Below are positions 12,586 to 21,030 of a stretch of DNA of 26,133 nt, piece after piece. Source of the DNA: a virus. Location of the stretch: the IMG/VR virus record IMGVR_UViG_3300030109_000489, positions 1-26,133 of that record; one strand, written 5' to 3'. The number at the start of each line of letters is the position of its first letter. Within the stretch, counting starts at the first letter, position 1. The notes below the pieces were generated by a model, which saw nothing but the letters and a program-made list of their open reading frames with translations, ran no database searches and had not been told where the DNA came from. Both the position numbers and the translations under genes were made by a program.

Positions 12586-14447
12586 TATTTTTTACCGTCC
12601 TGTCTCATTTCTAATCTAAATGAACCTAATCTCCATCCATAACCTAAACCAGAACTTTGAAACCTTAATATTGCTTGTCTTGTTCTTGCTCTTATAAAAG
12701 CTTGTTGTGTTGTAGAATTTATAGAACTTGTAGATAAAGTTGTAGGGGTATCAAGCGGATAATCTACACCTTTTACTAAAACGTCTAATGTATCATCAGT
12801 TCCTGTTTGTCCTTTAAAAGTTAAATCCGGAATAATTTTAGAAACAAACATATAGTGTTCACCGTCTGGCTCTAAATCAAAATCAGAAGTTTCTACAAAA
12901 GCATTCATAATAGAACCATCAGCATCATTTCCTACCTCATGGTTATACAAATAATTATTATTAGTAGTGTCGTTTTTGCTTGCTGCAACTGGGAAATCTA
13001 AAGAATTTGCTTCTATCCAAGCTGTTCTAGTAAAACCATCATCGGTTGTGCCTATACTCCAAGTATTTTCTAAATAATTAAAAATTACATATCTGTTTAA
13101 TTCACTTGAATCCGCAGATGGGTAAAACCACATAATTTCATTTTGATCTACATTTGACGTACCAAAAATTTTAAAAGACTGACCTAAATTAATATCAGAA
13201 AATATATAGTCTCTTACTGCACACGGTAAAGTTTGAACACTACCTGCATAAATATAAAAACTTCCCCTATCCATAAAAAACACTTTGTTATCAGCATTTA
13301 TAGCTGCATTCGGTGAAATCATGGAGGGACCTTGCATAATTTCAGAAAATGTAAATATAAAAGGAGCACCACTATATTGCATAGAATGCAATCCATTGTC
13401 TGTCCAAATTAAAATTTCTTGTCTAGTTCTTAGGGCACCAATTATAGTTGATCCACTTGATAATCTAGTGCCTCCGGCTGTATTAGTAGAAGTTGGTGTC
13501 CAATCTATTGAACTTTCTTGATCAGACCATCTGACAAATAATGGATCAGAAGTTGTAGAACCTATTGGATTAGCACCAAAACAAATTATATGTCTATCAA
13601 TATCAGAAACCATTATTTGTAATACTGCTGTTGGTGGATTACTAGCTCCTGATAAATCAGAAAATGACACAGCACGAGTAGATGTGCCTCCACTTTCGTC
13701 CCATAAAAATATTCCGCCACCTCTTACACAAGTTATAAGATCATCACCAAAATTATCTTGCGACCATAATCTTAATTGATTGACTGAATCAATAGCACTT
13801 GTTGATCCCCAACCTCCTGCACCCCAAGTATCTATACCCCATCCTGTTCCTTTTACAAAAGTATCTAGTCCTACATTTATTTCATAAGAACCATCTACAC
13901 CAGAACCTCCATTACCTGTGTCGCTAGAGTTTGCAGTAACTGTAGTTCCTGAAGTATCTTTAGCAGTTATTTCATAAGTATTAGCAGTCAGAACTTTATC
14001 TATTATGTATTCTTGATTTAAAACAGCAGCAGTTACGTTACCACCTAAAGAAACAGCTTGGGCAAAAGTTACAGTATCTCCTGTTACTGCTCCATGTGAT
14101 GAATCTGTTACTACGACTGTTGATGAACCATCAGTTGCAGCAAAAGTTATAGAATTAGTTGATGTTTTTCTTATAGGTGTAATATTGTTAAAAGTAGTTC
14201 CTTCTTTAACATATAGTTTTGTATGCGTTCCTACACCTATGTAATCTGTTTGCCCTTGATCTCTATATGAATGCAAACTTCTACAAGTACCTAAAAAACT
14301 ACTACTTGATGTTTTTTCCCATCCACCTATTTTTTCAGGTCTACCGCTTCTAAATCTTACTTTATCAGCATTAAAATAGCCTCCTTCTTCAGAATAAGAA
14401 GTACCTTCTCTATTTATGCCGGGACGAAAAACATATTTTTTTAACAT
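12585..14447 (-). CDS. phage tail/stabilization-type protein (beta-rich, 620 aa)
   Basis: 620 residues, beta-rich throughout. The N-terminus carries RPGINREGTSYSEEGGYF followed by an Arg-rich KVRFRSGRPEKIGGWEK segment. I associate this signature with podovirus proteins annotated as packaged-DNA stabilization or tail-nozzle proteins. It is rich in Ser, Thr, Asn and Gly with aromatic-Gly turns, which suits a propeller-like fold. It forms a TAATG junction with the upstream lysozyme stop, coupling a virion gene directly to the lysis cassette. Identification is by N-terminal signature and context. The nozzle versus stabilization label should be regarded as provisional. Confidence 0.7.
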   Translation of the reverse strand: MLKKYVFRPGINREGTSYSEEGGYFNADKVRFRSGRPEKIGGWEKTSSSSFLGTCRSLHSYRDQGQTDYIGVGTHTKLYVKEGTTFNNITPIRKTSTNSITFAATDGSSTVVVTDSSHGAVTGDTVTFAQAVSLGGNVTAAVLNQEYIIDKVLTANTYEITAKDTSGTTVTANSSDTGNGGSGVDGSYEINVGLDTFVKGTGWGIDTWGAGGWGSTSAIDSVNQLRLWSQDNFGDDLITCVRGGGIFLWDESGGTSTRAVSFSDLSGASNPPTAVLQIMVSDIDRHIICFGANPIGSTTSDPLFVRWSDQESSIDWTPTSTNTAGGTRLSSGSTIIGALRTRQEILIWTDNGLHSMQYSGAPFIFTFSEIMQGPSMISPNAAINADNKVFFMDRGSFYIYAGSVQTLPCAVRDYIFSDINLGQSFKIFGTSNVDQNEIMWFYPSADSSELNRYVIFNYLENTWSIGTTDDGFTRTAWIEANSLDFPVAASKNDTTNNNYLYNHEVGNDADGSIMNAFVETSDFDLEPDGEHYMFVSKIIPDLTFKGQTGTDDTLDVLVKGVDYPLDTPTTLSTSSINSTTQQAFIRARTRQAILRFQSSGLGYGWRLGSFRLEMRQDGKK

Positions 14448-14887
14448 TATTCTTCTAAAACTCTATCTCTTAATCTTACTGCTCTAGCACCTACTTGATT
14501 AGCCCATTTACTATCCATCATTTCTTCTGATGCTGTTTCAAAGTCTCCTGCTTTCATAGCTGCTAAAAATTTTTTAAAGTTTTTTAATCTAGGTAATCCT
14601 AAATTAAATGCCATATTAGCCATAACTCTTTGCTTGTTATCATCTAAATCTTTCCACCAAGGCAAATTTTTATCTAATTCTTTACACACAATATCTATAT
14701 CAGCGTTCAAACATTCATATATTCTTTCTTCTGATATAGGAGTTCCCATAGGCAAACCCCACTCTTTATCTTTTTCTGTCAATAAATGTCCTACACCCAA
14801 AGTAGGATAACCTAAATGATCTCTATATATTTCATACATAAAGCCTTCATCCATTATTATTTCTTTTACTAATTTATCTCTATCCAT
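14447..14887 (-). CDS. endolysin, GH24 (T4-type) lysozyme
   Basis: 146 residues, a complete single-domain muramidase. The catalytic triad spacing of T4 lysozyme (Glu, +9 Asp, +6 Thr) is present as E14, D23 and T29, followed by LGVGHLL. It should cleave the MurNAc-GlcNAc bond of peptidoglycan. There is no signal peptide or transmembrane anchor, so export depends on a holin, which is encoded immediately upstream. The leader between holin and lysozyme (14888-14954) can fold so that a purine-rich stretch before the ATG is partly paired. AAGG, 11 nt from the ATG, is the likely, slightly distant RBS. Confidence 0.95.
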   Translation of the reverse strand: MDRDKLVKEIIMDEGFMYEIYRDHLGYPTLGVGHLLTEKDKEWGLPMGTPISEERIYECLNADIDIVCKELDKNLPWWKDLDDNKQRVMANMAFNLGLPRLKNFKKFLAAMKAGDFETASEEMMDSKWANQVGARAVRLRDRVLEE

Positions 14888-14954: not shown

Positions 14955-15425
14955 CTAATCTTGTTTCTGTGATGCACCGAAATAAAAACTTATAACAGCA
15001 CTAGCCAAACCACCTAAATAACCTAAAACTAAATTAATTAACGCTTCGCTATTTTGTTCTGGTGGTTGTAAGGTTACTAAAAATATATATGCTAAAAAAC
15101 CACCTACTGTAGCTATACCCATAATTCTAGCTGTCCAATCTTTACCAAATTTACCTCTAGCATCTTGTTTATCAGCAGTTTCTAGTTTAAATACATCTAC
15201 TTCTAATTCTTTCATCTGAACCTCAAAAGCTTGTTCTGCTTTTTTTAATTCTAACATTTGCTCCGGAGATGCCGACTCAATAGCTTTTTCTATAGACTTA
15301 GAATCATTTTTACATCCTAAAACTTCAGAAATCATATTGGCAGCCATACCGCCCATAGGTCCACCTAATGCAGTACCTAAAGTTGGTGCTACTGCACCTA
15401 CAACACTTTTTAACAAATCTTTCAT
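14955..15425 (-). CDS. holin, 3-TM gene-transfer-agent type
   Basis: 156 residues from the ATG at 15425, preceded by GGGAG at 5-nt spacing. An in-frame ATG at 15437 lacks a good RBS. An N-terminal Gly-rich APTLGTALGGPMGGMAANMI segment is followed by a charged helix (SPEQMLELKKAEQAFEVQ), then ...TARIMGIATVGGF... and a second hydrophobic segment at about 128-150. This arrangement matches the 3TM holin family described for gene-transfer-agent release. It lies directly upstream of the lysozyme and starts 3 nt after the cyclase stop, so lysis is translationally linked to the signalling module. The role in permeabilising the inner membrane is inferred from family and position. Confidence 0.75.
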   Translation of the reverse strand: MKDLLKSVVGAVAPTLGTALGGPMGGMAANMISEVLGCKNDSKSIEKAIESASPEQMLELKKAEQAFEVQMKELEVDVFKLETADKQDARGKFGKDWTARIMGIATVGGFLAYIFLVTLQPPEQNSEALINLVLGYLGGLASAVISFYFGASQKQD

Positions 15426-15427
15426 TT

Positions 15428-17197
15428 CTACTCCCATGTATAAACTTGTAAGGGTTTTGCTTTACCTTTAACCTCTATAGGGTCTAATAATTTCATAGCA
15501 AATTTACTATGTTTTGCAGTTTCCTCACCTATTAAAACACCAACACCCGCAACTTTTGTACTAGATTCTAATCTAGCAGCAACATTGCAAGGGTCACCAA
15601 TTAAACTAAATGCAAACCTGTCTGTAGCACCAAAATTTCCTGCTATACAAACTCCACTATTAACACCTATGCCTATAGCTACTTCAGGTATACCTTCTTC
15701 TTTAAACTTTAAGTTAAGCTTATCTATATTACTTTCTATTTCTTTAGCGGCTTGTAATGCTAAATTATGATGATCATCTTGTGGAATTATAGTATTCCAA
15801 TGAAACATACCTGCATCGCCTATAAATTTATCTGTGCATCCAAAATATTTATTAGCTGCTTCTACTTGTGCATCTAATACTGCATTCATAATATACGTAA
15901 CCATTTCTGGTTCTACTGACTCTGATAAGCTAGTAAATCCTCTAAGGTCTGTAAATATAATAGAACAATCTACTCTTTTACCATTTACCTGACAAAGTTC
16001 AGGATTATCTTGCAATTTTTTGACCATTCTTGGATCAAGATATTTACCAAACTGTCCTTTAATTTGTTGCCTTAATTTGTATTGTTCTCTAAATCTAAGA
16101 TAGAAAGCAGTTGAGGCACTTATAAACTGAGATAACAAAGACCAAGTAACATCTATTAATAAACCATTTTGTATTAAATAGTAACCACTTAAAGCAGTTC
16201 CCATTATTACTAAGCTAGAAGCAGATATTCCGAAAGTAATTCCTAGAACATTAATCAAACTTATAACTAAACAAAGTGATATAAATGTAAACAATAATTC
16301 TACTAACAAAGAATAATCAGGAATATAAGGACTATTTTCTATTAATATAGATTCTGCTAAAGCTGCTTGTATTTTATGAGGTTCTAAAAGTTTATTATTA
16401 GGAACTGCAATTTGTGGCATTATTCCTTTTGCTGTAAATCCTACAAAAACAAATTTATTTTCTACATCCATTTCAGCAAGATTGGTTTGTGGTGTATCAA
16501 CCCAACTTATCCATTTTCTACCAAGGCTATCTACCTTAACAGGAGGCAAGCCCCTAACTCTTATTTCTTCTATACCATTATCATTAGTTTTAATAACATA
16601 GGTATCTGCACCAGCTAATACCTTTAAAACTTCAGTTCCGTAAGATGCTACCCAACCGTCATTAGTTCTCATTAATAACGGCAGTCTTCTCACTAAATTA
16701 TCAACTTCTGTTCTTGCTACTGCTAAACCTTGACTTGAATTTTGTTTTAAAACTTTTATATTTTGTATAACGCCTTGAGCCTTAATACCACCTATATCAT
16801 TTCCTAATATGACTGTGCCTGTTGTAGGTGGATATTCTCCTTTTCCCTCAAACATTGCTAATACACTAGGAGAAAAAGACAACGCTTCTGAAAATTCAAA
16901 GTCACCTCCAAATCTATCAGGCTGTGGAAAAGCTATAACCCATCCAACTCCTATAGCACCTTTACGTAAAAGATTTATTTGTATTTGTGCTAGTGTTTGT
17001 CTTGATAAAGGATAACCTCCTTCTCTAGCTATATCTTCTTCTGTGATATTTAAAATCGTAAAATAATCTGAAGGTTCTTGTTGTGTAACAAAAGCATCAA
17101 AAGTTTTTAATTTTAATATTTGATAAGCTGAAGGTTGAAAAATATATACGCTACATAAAGCAAAAATTAATAATAAATAAATATTAAGATTTTTCAT
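15428..17197 (-). CDS. CHASE2-domain class III adenylate cyclase
   Basis: 589 residues with an N-terminal membrane segment (5-22). A periplasmic CHASE2 domain follows (about 30-285), including GYPLSRQTLAQIQINLLRKG and the FVGFTAKG motif. Three membrane segments (about 294-365) lead to a linker with FGKYLDPRMVKKL and a class III cyclase domain (about 405-589). Catalytic residues are intact: metal Asp D417 (FTDLRGF) and D461 (IGDA), adenine-specifying K457 and D535 (IGDPCN), and transition-state N538 and R542. This predicts ATP to cAMP rather than cGMP. The start overlaps the FecR gene stop (ATGA) with AGGG upstream, and the stop is followed at once by the holin. A sensor cyclase in a phage lysis region is very unusual. 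Confidence 0.97.
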   Translation of the reverse strand: MKNLNIYLLLIFALCSVYIFQPSAYQILKLKTFDAFVTQQEPSDYFTILNITEEDIAREGGYPLSRQTLAQIQINLLRKGAIGVGWVIAFPQPDRFGGDFEFSEALSFSPSVLAMFEGKGEYPPTTGTVILGNDIGGIKAQGVIQNIKVLKQNSSQGLAVARTEVDNLVRRLPLLMRTNDGWVASYGTEVLKVLAGADTYVIKTNDNGIEEIRVRGLPPVKVDSLGRKWISWVDTPQTNLAEMDVENKFVFVGFTAKGIMPQIAVPNNKLLEPHKIQAALAESILIENSPYIPDYSLLVELLFTFISLCLVISLINVLGITFGISASSLVIMGTALSGYYLIQNGLLIDVTWSLLSQFISASTAFYLRFREQYKLRQQIKGQFGKYLDPRMVKKLQDNPELCQVNGKRVDCSIIFTDLRGFTSLSESVEPEMVTYIMNAVLDAQVEAANKYFGCTDKFIGDAGMFHWNTIIPQDDHHNLALQAAKEIESNIDKLNLKFKEEGIPEVAIGIGVNSGVCIAGNFGATDRFAFSLIGDPCNVAARLESSTKVAGVGVLIGEETAKHSKFAMKLLDPIEVKGKAKPLQVYTWE

Positions 17198-18309
17198 CCT
17201 GAACCCTGTTTAACATTTATTGTTGTACTAGAGCCACCGTTAACTTTTATGGTATTAGCAACACCGTCTTGCATTAAGTAAATAGTATAGGCATCAGAAC
17301 CATCTACATTTAGCTTTACACTTTGACTTACAGATCGTGTGAAAGTTATATTTCTGCCAGAAACTATTGTTGTGATCTGTGTATCTTTATCCTGTCCTAT
17401 CTCTGTTCCAACTATACGAATACCTACACCACCTTGTTTTAGAGCATCTTCTTCTTTTGATATAGCTAGTGCGTCTATGACATTTAATAAGTCCTCTAAG
17501 AAATTAGTAGCCAACATATCTATGTCTAGTTCAGTAAATTCTAGTTCTTCTTCTGCATCTAAAAAATCTTCTGCTAGATAATCAATATCCAGATCATCAA
17601 ACTCTAAATAATCTGCTGTAGTTTGTGTTTGTGTTTCTTCTTGTTGTTCTTTTATTTCTTCTGGTGGATTTACGATAAGTAAATTATCTATAAATTCTAA
17701 AGATATATCTAAGGTTATAGGTTTAGTAGGATTACTTTCGTAAACAGATACAGTTGTAGCTTGATAAGGTTTATTTAAAGTTACACTACCTAAACCTGTT
17801 GATACTATTATTTCACCGCTAGATATACCGTTTTCATCTGGTAATAAAATTACAAGACTTCTACCTAACTCATCTACTGTACAGGTAAAATCCGTCCCAC
17901 GAATTGCAATTTGGGCTGTTGGTGTACGTATAGATATATTGCTCTTGTTGTTAAATTTACCTGTTATAAAACGTGCTGTACCACTAGCAAACTTTAATGC
18001 CATCTTTGATTTTGATGGATCAGGATCGTAAATGTACTCGTCTATAACAAGTTTAGAATGTTCTGTAAGTTTTACCGTAGAAGCATCTTCAAAAGTTATT
18101 GCCACTCTGCCCGTTTCTGTACGGACATCATCCATTTGTTGTATGTTGAACTCTAATTCAGCATCATACGGCACATCTCTGAGAACTTGTGCATTTCCTC
18201 TGAGTTCTGATACTAAACCTATGTTAGCAGACGAATGAAGTAGTTGCGTCTGACTGAGTAACACAGACAGTACCACTAGAGCCCGCAGATGTAATTTTAA
18301 GCCAGTCAT
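17194..18309 (-). CDS. FecR-domain periplasmic protein with curlin-like C-terminus
   Basis: 371 residues. A signal peptide covers about 1-28 (basic n-region, hydrophobic core, cleavage near HSSA/N). The FecR domain (about 30-190) shows GLVSELRGNAQVLRD, DDVRTETGRVAITFEDAST, and the hallmark ISIRTPTAQIAIRGTDF. A Gln/Glu-rich linker leads to an acidic tandem repeat: LEFDDLDIDYLAEDFLD (235-251) and LEFTELDIDMLATNFLE (256-272), period 21. The last part, IYLMQDGVANTIKVNGG then INVKQGSG, resembles curlin repeats. FecR-domain proteins are often encoded next to CHASE2 cyclases in bacteria, as here (4-nt overlap). Its first 28 codons overlap the upstream curlin-like gene. Likely a periplasmic partner or ligand-sensing protein for the cyclase. 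Confidence 0.88.
   Translation of the reverse strand: MTGLKLHLRALVVLSVLLSQTQLLHSSANIGLVSELRGNAQVLRDVPYDAELEFNIQQMDDVRTETGRVAITFEDASTVKLTEHSKLVIDEYIYDPDPSKSKMALKFASGTARFITGKFNNKSNISIRTPTAQIAIRGTDFTCTVDELGRSLVILLPDENGISSGEIIVSTGLGSVTLNKPYQATTVSVYESNPTKPITLDISLEFIDNLLIVNPPEEIKEQQEETQTQTTADYLEFDDLDIDYLAEDFLDAEEELEFTELDIDMLATNFLEDLLNVIDALAISKEEDALKQGGVGIRIVGTEIGQDKDTQITTIVSGRNITFTRSVSQSVKLNVDGSDAYTIYLMQDGVANTIKVNGGSSTTINVKQGSG
17494..17607 (-). repeat. acidic tandem repeat within FecR-like protein
   Basis: Two copies of a 17-residue acidic motif (L-E-F-x-x-L-D-I-D-x-L-A-x-x-F-L) at a 21-residue period, residues 235-272 of the FecR-domain protein. It reads as an internal duplication and may form amphipathic helices or bind cations. 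Role unknown. Confidence 0.7.
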
Positions 18310-18967
18310 TATCAGATGTTGACTCCTGATCTATATTAAAAGTCCTACTACCTCCGACATGAGTTAGATGAAAATATCCACCTGCATATCCATCACCATC
18401 ATAAGTTACCGTATTATCGTTACCGTCTATGTTCATATAATTAGTAGCACCATCTACATCTATAGATGCAGTTATACTGTTGCTACCACCTTGTATAGTC
18501 CAATCTAAGTCTAGGTTAGCTGCTAGTGCTGTCATAGCGTGATTGAGTGTCATTGTGTTCGTATTACCAGTGACTTGTACGTTTACGTTAGAACCATCGG
18601 CACCTGTAGCATTTGTTTCGTCTGTACTCATATTAAACGTATTTGTGTCGCCTATAAAAGAAAAGTAACCCGTATAGTTGTCTGCCCATATATCGCCTAA
18701 GAATTTATTCGTGTTACCTTTTTGTAAGACATCCAATGTCATAGTTCCGCCATCTAAATCTAAAGCGGTCATAGAACCTGCTGCTGCATCAGAACCACCA
18801 ATAATGTTACCACTACCGCCTACTTGTTCTATATCTAAATTAGACGTTGCTCCTGATTGATCTATAAATATTTCATTATCAGCCCCGTATAGTGTTGATA
18901 CACTCATCATCACAACTAGGTTCATTAATGTCAGTATTTTTATTTTGTTTCCAATAGCCTTTTTCAT
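18224..18967 (-). CDS. curlin-repeat (CsgA/B-like) secreted protein
   Basis: 247 residues. A signal peptide spans 1-29 (MKKAIGNKIKILTLMNLVVM..., cleavage likely YGA/DNE). The rest is a run of roughly eight degenerate repeats of the curlin type, I-x-Q-x-G-x-x-N-x-x-x-I, for example IFIDQSGATSNLDIEQVGG, VLQKGNTNKF, VTGNTNTMTL and IQGGSNSITASI. It is rich in Asn, Thr, Gly and Asp, as expected of an extracellular beta-solenoid amyloid. It ends with two Cys (C235, C247), unusual for curlins. A strong SD (AGAGGAGGG) precedes the start, the best in the module, suggesting high expression. csgG and csgF lie directly upstream, so CsgG is the probable export pore. CsgA-like versus CsgB-like cannot be decided. 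Confidence 0.75.
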   Translation of the reverse strand: MKKAIGNKIKILTLMNLVVMMSVSTLYGADNEIFIDQSGATSNLDIEQVGGSGNIIGGSDAAAGSMTALDLDGGTMTLDVLQKGNTNKFLGDIWADNYTGYFSFIGDTNTFNMSTDETNATGADGSNVNVQVTGNTNTMTLNHAMTALAANLDLDWTIQGGSNSITASIDVDGATNYMNIDGNDNTVTYDGDGYAGGYFHLTHVGGSRTFNIDQESTSDNDWLKITSAGSSGTVCVTQSDATTSFVC

Positions 18968-19736
18968 AGCCCTCCTCTATTGTTTGTAAAACTGCTTTCT
19001 CTACTGCCATTTGTAAAGCTATATTTATTGATTCATTTTCTACTATACCGCTTTCTATTTCAACTAACTCGGTATTATTTGCATAAAATCTAAACACATC
19101 TGAAGATACAGATGCACTTAATATTGTTTTAGTAACTAATACTTCTATTAATATTTTACCTGTTAAAACAGATACAGTTCGTAAAGATATAGTTACAGAA
19201 TCTTGTCTATATTCTTTAGAGCCACCTATACCTAAATATCTAGCACCAGCACCACCTGATTTAATATTTGTTTCGTAACCTACAACACCACCTTCCATTA
19301 ATAAACCAGCAAACATTAAAGGTTTTACCTTTTGTTTTTCTTCAAAGTTTTCTCTAGTTGTACGTATTATCTGACGTTCTTTTGTAAGATTATCTAAACC
19401 GGTGCGTTCTACAACATCAAAAACACCAGAATGTTGTAATGCTCTTATAAGATAAGCATCGGGTGCTTGAGTTATTGCGGTACTAAAACTAGCATATTGA
19501 CTATTACTTCTTCGCTGTCCGGTATCATCTTTAAAAGAACTTGGATATACAGCTACTACAGGTTTTCGTATAGGAAGAGGCACCTCTGCTAAATCAGTTA
19601 ATAAAGAACTAACTTCGGCTGATTCTATATGTCTTATAGGTGGTATTCCGTTATCTAATGGATCAACAATCAACGCACAACTAGAAAGTAAAAGAACCAA
19701 GAGGTACAGTAATTTCTGTTGTATTGCCTTCTTCAT
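18879..19736 (-). CDS. csgG: CsgG family outer-membrane curli secretion lipoprotein
   Basis: 285 residues (E. coli CsgG has 277). A lipoprotein signal peptide ends in the lipobox LSSC with acylated Cys C20. Family signatures run in order: KPVVAVYPSSFKDDTGQRRS (58-77), FSTAITQAPDAYLIRAL (84-100), ERTGLDNLTKERQIIR (110-125), GGAGARYLGIGGSKEYRQD (161-179), LTGKILIEVLVTKTILS (191-207), and the C-terminal NESINIALQMAVEKAV...GYW. It should form the nonameric outer-membrane channel that exports curlins. The start has no SD, and its first 19 codons overlap csgF, so translation is probably coupled. The residues matching the E. coli constriction differ (S79, S83, F84 opposite Y51, N55, F56, ungapped alignment). 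Confidence 0.97.
   Translation of the reverse strand: MKKAIQQKLLYLLVLLLSSCALIVDPLDNGIPPIRHIESAEVSSLLTDLAEVPLPIRKPVVAVYPSSFKDDTGQRRSNSQYASFSTAITQAPDAYLIRALQHSGVFDVVERTGLDNLTKERQIIRTTRENFEEKQKVKPLMFAGLLMEGGVVGYETNIKSGGAGARYLGIGGSKEYRQDSVTISLRTVSVLTGKILIEVLVTKTILSASVSSDVFRFYANNTELVEIESGIVENESINIALQMAVEKAVLQTIEEGYEKGYWKQNKNTDINEPSCDDECINTIRG
18970..18978 (-). promoter_or_regulatory. strong Shine-Dalgarno of the curlin-like gene
   Basis: AGAGGAGGG, 2 nt before the ATG at 18967, with the GAGG core about 6 nt away. It lies inside the 3' end of csgG, where coding constraints would otherwise act. The csgG, csgF and fecR-like starts lack a well-placed SD, so this gene is probably translated most. It also decides the start at 18967 over the internal Met codons. 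Confidence 0.7.
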
Positions 19737-20148
19737 CTGTAATTATTAATGTTACTTTATCGTCTTCTACTCTATATTCTATTGTATTGCCTTCTAATTC
19801 AAGAACACCAAAATCTGACGCAGTTTCTCCAAATAAACTATCTACCAACTGCCTTGATAACTGTGCATAAATACGACTTTCTAAATTACGAATAAATCTA
19901 GCTAAAGTTGTGTTGTCAGCCTCTCTTTCTAAATCTTCTACATAGGCTTTGATTTCTTCACGAATAGCTTCTTTTCTATTAAATTCTTGATTTTCTATAG
20001 TCAGGTAGTGACTAGATGTGCCAACACCAGAAAAACTTGGGTTTTTAAATTTATGGGTCATTTCATCTGCTTGCACAGATAAAACTACAAACATAAAAAT
20101 TATCATGGAAGCTATCAGCAACACTTCATCAGGACGTTTAGAAGGCAT
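19681..20148 (-). CDS. csgF: CsgF-like curli assembly protein
   Basis: 155 residues from the ATG at 20148. The signal peptide (about 1-27, ...VVLSVQA/DE) is followed by MTHKFKNPSFSGVGTSSHYL, matching the conserved mature CsgF start (F-x-N-P-x-F-x-G, then a Gln/Asn-containing segment) that inserts into the CsgG channel in E. coli. A charged helical middle follows, and the C-terminus (VTLIITDEEGNTTEITVPLG) matches the CsgF beta tail. Longer in-frame starts up to 20271 exist, but they would put the signal peptide deep inside and overlap the 65-residue upstream gene. The 20148 start follows that gene's stop by 5 nt. Expected to work with the adjacent CsgG in anchoring or nucleating exported curlin at the surface. 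Confidence 0.88.
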   Translation of the reverse strand: MPSKRPDEVLLIASMIIFMFVVLSVQADEMTHKFKNPSFSGVGTSSHYLTIENQEFNRKEAIREEIKAYVEDLEREADNTTLARFIRNLESRIYAQLSRQLVDSLFGETASDFGVLELEGNTIEYRVEDDKVTLIITDEEGNTTEITVPLGSFTF

Positions 20149-20153
20149 AATTT

Positions 20154-20351
20154 TTATAGATAAGTAATTACTAAATCTACACTTTTTACTGTATCTATCC
20201 AATAAAATGTTATATAGCCTAGCCAACTGAATGCAATTAAAAAGCAACATACTACTGTGTATCTTTTCCAATTTGCTAGTAATAAATCTATTGAGATATC
20301 AATAAAATTAAATACCTTTTGTCTTTTAGATAGTTTCTTTTTTCTTGGCAT
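20154..20351 (-). CDS. small single-span membrane protein (65 aa)
   Basis: 65 residues with a very basic N-terminus (MPRKKKLSKRQK) and a hydrophobic segment around 33-52 containing Trp, Cys and Tyr. A perfect AAGGAG lies about 5 nt upstream of the ATG, so it is well translated. It ends 5 nt before csgF. The topology is probably N-in by the positive-inside rule. It is not CsgE by length or sequence. It could be a small lysis, regulatory or export helper; I do not recognise a family. Confidence 0.65.
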   Translation of the reverse strand: MPRKKKLSKRQKVFNFIDISIDLLLANWKRYTVVCCFLIAFSWLGYITFYWIDTVKSVDLVITYL

Positions 20352-20360
20352 AGCTGCTCC

Positions 20361-20699
20361 TTAATTAAATGCCCAAACAAAAACTGCTAATAATCCAATC
20401 AAAGATAACAAAATAAATGCAATAGAAGTTATTTCTATAGTCTTACCTAATTTATTTAGATATATTGTATCTCGTTCAGGATTAAACCTTTCGTCCTCAT
20501 AAATATACTTATCACGCGGAAAAGGTCTTTTGGGTATAGGTTCAAATATTACGTTGTCTATTGAGACTAACTGTTCTTCTTCTATTCTTTTTACTTCTGC
20601 CTCTTGGTACTCCGTCCATTTTTTACCGTACTTTTCATACATAATATTATTAAAGTCAGCGTCTAAAAATGCTTGATCTTCAGTCTTTTCTTTGGTCAT
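20361..20699 (-). CDS. C-terminally anchored small membrane protein (112 aa)
   Basis: 112 residues: a long charged, Glu/Lys/Tyr-rich soluble part (1-88, with FEPIPKRPFPRDKYIYEDER in the middle) and a single C-terminal membrane segment (about 91-111, ending AVFVWAFN). The tail-anchor design puts the bulk of the protein in the cytoplasm. AAGG lies 9 nt before the start. It overlaps the 3' end of the upstream membrane gene by 20 nt and stops 9 nt before the next start. No family is recognised; the neighbourhood is a run of three small membrane proteins before the curli genes. Confidence 0.6.
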   Translation of the reverse strand: MTKEKTEDQAFLDADFNNIMYEKYGKKWTEYQEAEVKRIEEEQLVSIDNVIFEPIPKRPFPRDKYIYEDERFNPERDTIYLNKLGKTIEITSIAFILLSLIGLLAVFVWAFN

Positions 20700-21030
20700 C
20701 TCTATCTGCCTTTGCTATTTTATTACTGTCTATTAACTGTGGTACACCAAGTATTGTTTTTATAAGTGTGTCTTGTCTAATAATTTCATTGTCTAAACTT
20801 CTTATGCGATCTATAAGAGCTACTAAGATGCCGTGTTGTGAATCTAATTTAGTTCCAAGTCTATCTTCCATTTGAGATATTTGATCGGCTACTTTATCAT
20901 CTAGCACATCTAGTTTAGTTTCCATGCCGTCTATTATTCTATTTATAAGCTTCCAAATAAAAATACCTAGTCCTAGAGCAGCAGCTATTGGAAACCCAAC
21001 TTCTGCTATAAATAAAGTAATATCTTCCAT
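20680..21030 (-). CDS. small membrane protein with TM plus coiled coil (116 aa)
   Basis: 116 residues. One N-terminal membrane segment (about 5-33, ITLFIAEVGFPIAAALGLGI) is followed by an amphipathic coiled-coil region (about 36-90, heptad Leu/Ile with METKLDVLDDKVADQIS) and a charged tail. The layout resembles small phage holin-like or hemolysin-XhlA-like proteins, but no signature is decisive. Its start forms a TAATG junction with the SNase stop, so translation is coupled. A possible second holin or lysis regulator, at low certainty. Confidence 0.6.
   Translation of the reverse strand: MEDITLFIAEVGFPIAAALGLGIFIWKLINRIIDGMETKLDVLDDKVADQISQMEDRLGTKLDSQHGILVALIDRIRSLDNEIIRQDTLIKTILGVPQLIDSNKIAKADRDDQRKD

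Follow-up and report, generated by a model that had tools for sequence, protein, structure and literature searches.

A curlin-like C-terminal tail on the FecR-domain protein of a marine phage curli-type cassette

Why phage curli cassettes hold a FecR-domain protein together with a nucleotide cyclase is unexplained. The question is posed here by the virus record IMGVR_UViG_3300030109_000489, of which positions 1 to 26,133 make up the window, i.e. the whole 26,133-base stretch of DNA analysed. The source is a marine bacteriophage, and the minus strand carries a curli-type cassette with the type VIII secretion (curli) trio CsgG, CsgF and curlin; a holin-like gene and the gene of a phage lysozyme come after it. 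The FecR-domain protein of this cassette ends in a tail that resembles a curlin unit, and this tail offers a concrete physical link of the fibre with the signal which can be put to the test.

A pelagiphage cassette composed of CsgF, CsgG, CsgA/B, FecR and adenylate cyclase was reported in 2022 for podoviruses and myoviruses and described as widespread in the ocean (PMC9599517), and CsgF/CsgG have been described in a further report (PMC7029224) and in the Melnitz paper (PMC9004378). The window is alike in gene order (CsgF, CsgG, curlin, FecR, adenylate cyclase). As the cassette is published, any novelty is restricted to the tail of FecR. In the accessible text of PMC9599517, FecR is proposed as a regulator and treated as one of the iron type; its main text contains no occurrence of 'curlin', 'C-terminal', 'fusion', 'domain architecture' or 'CHASE2', and no mention of the tail was found there. 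Likewise, no curlin-like FecR tail was found reported in the accessible literature on FecR/CHASE2 with curli, type VIII secretion or phage CsgG, supplements and closed papers lying outside this scope.

The FecR tail and its conservation

The FecR-domain protein is composed of the following parts.

17194..18309, minus strand: FecR-domain protein, 371 aa (Pfam PF04773; phrog_37870 E 4e-69 over residues 16-368)
18226..18309, minus strand: signal-peptide-like N-terminal segment, residues 1-28 (judged from sequence; predicted helix 2-24)
17665..18219, minus strand: FecR domain, residues 31-215, Pfam core 60-151 (PF04773 E 5.3e-13; structural match to the PupR CCSSD)
17467..17619, minus strand: acidic linker, residues 231-281 (two copies of an LDIDxLxxxFL-like stretch; prediction largely disordered)
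17197..17376, minus strand: whole C-terminal beta region, residues 312-371 (low-confidence model with strands 312-317, 320-325, 329-336, 340-347 and 350-356)
17197..17298, minus strand: curlin-like C-terminal tail, residues 338-371 (Gln347 at 17269-17271, Gln368 at 17206-17208)

Residues 338-371 (17197-17298) read SDAYTIYLMQDGVANTIKVNGGSSTTINVKQGSG. The preliminary description of this DNA had claimed the curlin pattern I-x-x-x-Q-x-G-x-x-N-x-I for these residues, which is literally there as IYLMQDGVANTI, and an ending V-x-Q-x-G, which has to be corrected to V-x-Q-x-x-G followed by the stop. Of the features of the curlin repeat (PF07012), the paired Gln residues on strands and the Q-x-G-x-x-N turn are both found in the tail.

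Relatives were taken from three IMG/VR scans (80/592, 80/305 and 21/21 kept), from Pelagibacter phage HTVC008M and Methylophilales phage Melnitz and from the window, many of them being mutually close; the 184 FecR loci yielded 173 complete proteins longer than 300 aa, all of which were used without any filter on the tail. In 173/173, at identities down to 33-39%, two Gln residues spaced 20-23 residues apart close the protein at a fixed place, which rules out a recent fusion confined to this window. The general form of the motif, hydrophobic-x-hydrophobic-x-Q occurring twice and ending at most 4 residues from the stop, describes 172 of the 173, the more restricted hydrophobic-x-hydrophobic-x-QxGxxN form 80, the remaining tails being without the G and N, and the literal motif a single protein, i.e. 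it is peculiar to the window. The earlier claim that FecR ends in a curlin-like unit is therefore borne out as a family trait and not as a one-sequence quirk. The named relatives HTVC008M (2 records) and Melnitz (4 records) are about 36-38% identical to the window FecR, and two phage-like contigs in host-family bins (L378, L379) carry intermediate tails.

The tail residues that do not vary across 71 aligned relatives are R325, Y341, Q347 and Q368. Among 63 distinct podovirus-type tail DNAs, Q347, D348, G349, V350, N352, K355, N357 and Q368 are fixed and their codons vary synonymously, a combination which indicates that the tail is under strong purifying selection. An end with two strand-borne Gln residues arises in 5.65e-4 of shuffled window tails and is present in 9 of 3,021 background open reading frames (ORFs), namely in six curlins, two unlabelled FecR relatives and one other.

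Likeness to curlin and the predicted fold

When the tail profile was compared with curlin C-termini by hhalign, the scores amounted to 14.4 for bacterial, 13.4 for myovirus first, 14.0 for podovirus first and 23.6 for second curlins, with 11.6-34.1 for one curlin set against another. Column-shuffled tail profiles reach these scores 0, 3, 0 and 0 times of 100 (same order of curlin sets), and 54 same-size control blocks from CsgF, CsgG, cyclase and the FecR domain 0, 1, 0 and 0 times. Since nearly all shuffled columns and control blocks score lower, the profile comparison supports a resemblance of the tail to a curlin unit beyond composition and generic beta sequence. With the CsgA/CsgB subunits the tail shares the strand-Q-xG-xx-N-strand pattern and the xIxIxQ-type end of bacterial and myovirus curlins, as several bacterial curlins end in an xVxITQ-type strand (e.g. 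VTVTQN, ITITQH) and myovirus first curlins in xIxIxQx(D); FecR differs from these subunits in holding one to one and a half units attached to a FecR domain and in staying below all family cut-offs.

The FecR domain itself is matched by PF04773 with 49.7 bits vs a cut-off of 24 (residues 60-151). In an AlphaFold2 model of the protein built with 71 sequences, the domain attains a predicted local distance difference test score (pLDDT) of about 70-85, with an overall mean of 53 and a predicted template modelling score (pTM) of 0.46. The modelled domain aligns with the PupR CCSSD (6ovk_R, Z 16.3, root-mean-square deviation 2.6, 139 aligned; 4m0h_B, Z 15.2) and, as modelled, folds like the juxta-membrane (CJM) subdomain of PupR. 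In PupR, the FecR-type domain precedes an STN subdomain which is structurally homologous to the signalling domain of the partner, both being needed for binding, as far as the accessible text goes (PMC7186176). The phage FecR is like such cell-surface signalling sigma regulators in that a CJM-fold beta domain is followed by a linker and a C-terminal module, but differs by its signal-peptide-like start, by the lack of a matched anti-sigma domain or STN (FecR is the sole Pfam match up to E 1) and by an output that would be a separate CHASE2 cyclase. No hydrophobic span above the transmembrane threshold was found in the protein.

We read FecR and CHASE2 together as a modular periplasmic sensor. 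Tentatively, and with a probability a little short of even, FecR would make up the periplasmic side of a sensor pair with CHASE2, and a mimic of one curlin unit would have taken the place of its C-terminal module for partner binding, a partner-mimicking tail for which the STN subdomain of PupR, resembling its own partner, is a precedent. The tail then suggests that FecR-type sensors can be retargeted by exchange of a partner-like C-terminal module.

Several observations weigh against this sensor pair with a curlin mimic. The hhalign alignments between tail and curlins span no more than 10-32 columns, and their absolute probabilities lie between 1.2 and 47%. In a non-redundant set of 30 of 175 tails, selected for being free of X over the final 70 residues and for a Gln within the last 10, Pfam Curlin_rpt gave no match over the cut-off, its best hit being to 1/30 with E 0.093 and 13.1 bits vs 20.7, in the company of nine other one-off families, and in NCBIfam the CsgA model matched 2/30 (best E 0.017) and an unrelated VWA model 6/30 (best E 0.0022). 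A 24-residue hidden Markov model of the bacterial curlin unit, which was without power, hit 17 FecR ORFs at E 17-50 only, and the PDB sequence search returned no curli chain from the tail profile, nor from the curlin profile. Strands are predicted for the tail, but the pLDDT is <50 from residue 325 on. One phage-like locus with ambiguous bases, kept outside the counts (L187), has the first Q-x-G and ends without the second Gln. The proposed contact of FecR with CHASE2 has gene neighbourhood as its basis. Finally, the cNMP-binding (cyclic nucleotide-binding) domain PF00027 was found in only 3/60 genomes searched of the Pelagibacteraceae (the L193 host family), although the cyclase of the phage cassettes has kept its catalytic residues; a SAR11 host for this phage is suggested by its relatives.

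All 17 hits of the curlin-unit model fall in the last 28 residues of the FecR ORFs, and CsgA is the sole NCBIfam model that matches the window tail, at E 0.017 and thus below the cut-off; PHROGs gave no curlin match over the cut-off for the tail alone. The significant curlin-repeat match anticipated in the preliminary description consequently did not materialize, in a Pfam test of little power, as the window's own curlin receives no Curlin_rpt match either. The first curlin of HTVC008M scores only E 1.1 and that of Melnitz E 8.6e-6, values which point to family models that are weak for phage curlins. In the window curlin, the repeat Q/G/N residues are invariant among 49 aligned sequences and the model consists of successive beta strands (pLDDT 78.8, pTM 0.76); Foldseek found no match for this model at E 0.001 or better, which leaves the curlin without a link to any solved structure of curli.

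For the tail, a beta-solenoid rung had been expected. The model places strands every 8-11 residues, about one and a half units; with a pLDDT <50 there is no confident fold, hence neither a confident curlin rung nor a confident unrelated fold. The modelled strands would be just as compatible with a meander (OspA and polo-box rows, Z 4-6), which, together with the want of a family match above cut-off and of a confident fold, would suit a generic small beta domain with a convergent likeness to curlin and no involvement of the fibre. This explanation is considered unlikely, given that same-size blocks of other protein families in these phages score lower (0, 1, 0, 0 of 54 reach the tail's scores), that both Gln residues are invariant in the 71 aligned sequences and that, in the sets examined, the tail occurs in no cassette without csg.

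FecR proteins of bacteria

The confinement of the tail, among the sets examined, to FecRs of csg-bearing phage cassettes is supported by comparison with bacterial loci. Four of 80 loci from genome collections are phage-like cassettes in bins of metagenome-assembled genomes (MAGs; L185-L188), and the other 76 were taken as bacterial; a curlin-like end is present in 0/79 of the bacterial FecR ORFs and csg genes in 0/76 of the loci. Among the four, the sequence of L188 stops short of the tail, and L185, L186 and L187, contigs of MAGs that are labelled Flavobacteriaceae or Pirellulales, have phage-type FecR-cyclase cassettes (2/3 also csg), probably by binning contamination. In 385 alphaproteobacterial genomes a FecR match was obtained in 135, and among the matches listed all end by profile position 238/371, before the tail. 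CsgF exceeded the cut-off in 5/385 of these genomes; the 17-18 kb fetched around each of the 5 CsgF-positive loci contain curlins and neither FecR nor cyclase, which rules out FecR as a regular part of bacterial curli operons.

A CHASE2/cyclase-type neighbour stands beside FecR in 28/76 bacterial loci, without csg, and pairing of FecR with a cyclase is thereby ruled out as a phage speciality. Clustering of FecR and CHASE2 genes has been reported for Campylobacterota in the accessible part of PMC9239204. A SAR11 (Pelagibacteraceae) single-cell genome (L195:2635-6567) encodes a CHASE2-SpoIIE phosphatase and, at a distance of one gene, a FecR of 191 residues that has no tail, a FecR-CHASE2 set with a different output (SpoIIE). 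These bacterial pairs are like the phage pair in that a FecR-domain protein is encoded near a CHASE2 enzyme, and differ from it in the absence of a curlin-like end and of csg and, in the case of SAR11, in the output.

Gene order, cyclase and possible roles of the tail

Around FecR, the window encodes the following genes.

19681..20271, minus strand: CsgF (Pfam PF10614 E 9.9e-18, residues 54-190; true start probably inside the ORF)
18879..19736, minus strand: CsgG outer-membrane export channel (Pfam PF03783 E 5.8e-51)
18224..18967, minus strand: curlin-like fibre subunit, 247 aa (recognized by position, invariant Q/G/N repeat residues and the modelled beta-strand series)
15428..17197, minus strand: CHASE2 - class III nucleotide cyclase (Pfam CHASE2 E 9.5e-23, Guanylate_cyc E 4.3e-15; the end of the FecR gene is overlapped by 4 bases)
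14955..15437, minus strand: holin-like membrane protein (weak holin match E 0.082; the cyclase gene is overlapped)
14447-14887, following the holin-like gene: phage lysozyme (Phage_lysozyme E 2.6e-13)

The curlin gene at 18224-18967 lies just upstream of FecR, as had been claimed, and overlaps it by 86 bases. Gene order was counted in 70 curlin loci, to the exclusion of a further 10; many of the 70 share contigs with FecR loci. FecR is next after curlin in 60/60 loci with at least 600 bases downstream, and the cyclase was found in 43/46 with 2,500 bases downstream. Median overlaps are 56 bases for CsgF/CsgG, 28 for CsgG/curlin, 86 for curlin/FecR, 4 for FecR/cyclase and 4 for cyclase/holin-like gene.

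In the cyclase family of the window (119 aligned), the CHASE2 domain and the class III catalytic residues are intact. Both metal Asp residues and the Lys are present in 116 (3 gaps); the specificity positions hold Asp in 87 and Ser in 29, Asn in 109 and Ser in 7, and Arg in 117 (2 gaps), metal binding and specificity being the roles that we take these aligned residues to have.

It is possible, if doubtful, that FecR is an export sensor which uses the imitation of an amyloid subunit as bait, its curlin rung linking the CHASE2 cyclase, and perhaps lysis via the overlapping holin-like gene, to the passage of fibre through CsgG. In the favoured reading, that of the sensor pair, FecR would be exported to the periplasm, where its beta domain would contact the CHASE2 sensor and its tail would pair with curlin strands awaiting, or stalled in, the CsgG/CsgF channel. 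Binding of the tail would alter the cyclase output, by which the phage would read whether fibre subunits pile up or leave. We infer a direct link of the tail to curlin; judging from the motif, the tail may stack on, cap, nucleate or compete with curlin, and CHASE2 may read export status. More generally, the tail suggests that phage can sense or touch the fibre during export.

The make-up of the cassettes bears on a different role. In podovirus-type cassettes, where FecR has the canonical QDGxxN tail, the cyclase abuts in 80/80 without an intervening second curlin, and behind the other FecR tails there is a gap before the cyclase in 59/59, often filled by a second curlin. Such an arrangement, as well as a FecR tail that ends as true curlins do, would be expected of a minor fibre subunit or CsgB-like nucleator, in which the fibre grows on the curlin unit as its template, the FecR domain serves as a periplasmic anchor or rides on the fibre, and cyclase signalling is secondary. 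However, the split between tails and second curlins tracks two phage clades and is therefore one contrast and not many (L378 and L379 stand outside the count), FecR holds one to one and a half units vs many in curlins, and the folded FecR beta domain would probably be unable to traverse CsgG, so that a nucleator appears improbable. With respect to the second curlins, that of HTVC008M (L001:7022-8347) has an N-terminal PA14 match (E 2.7e-6) ahead of the curlin repeats.

CsgE is a small oligomeric adaptor, and PF10627 was found in 0/6 phage records searched, fragments including the window among them. FecR could replace the absent CsgE as a gate or plug for CsgG, with the tail entering the channel from the periplasm and the FecR domain blocking it, and would then control pore opening and perhaps the timing of lysis. 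The chain of genes continues by short overlaps into the holin-like gene (median distance from the cyclase -4 over 26 gene pairs) with the lysozyme after it, which could tie the module to lysis, and a lysis role of CsgGF is proposed by the Melnitz authors in the accessible text (PMC9004378). FecR as a gate, with a hypothetical contact to CsgG, is nevertheless regarded as very improbable, the adaptor nature of CsgE counting against the replacement.

Apart from the sensor pair, two further regions of the window were noted. The two similar LDIDxLxxxFL stretches of the FecR linker (17467-17619) are largely conserved among relatives. In the genes preceding CsgF (window 20361-21030), a histidine-kinase Pfam match is absent, histidine kinases having been reported at this place in the accessible text of PMC9599517; one of these genes looks as if it encodes a small membrane protein with a coiled coil, and its position ahead of csgF is preserved in 169 gene pairs.

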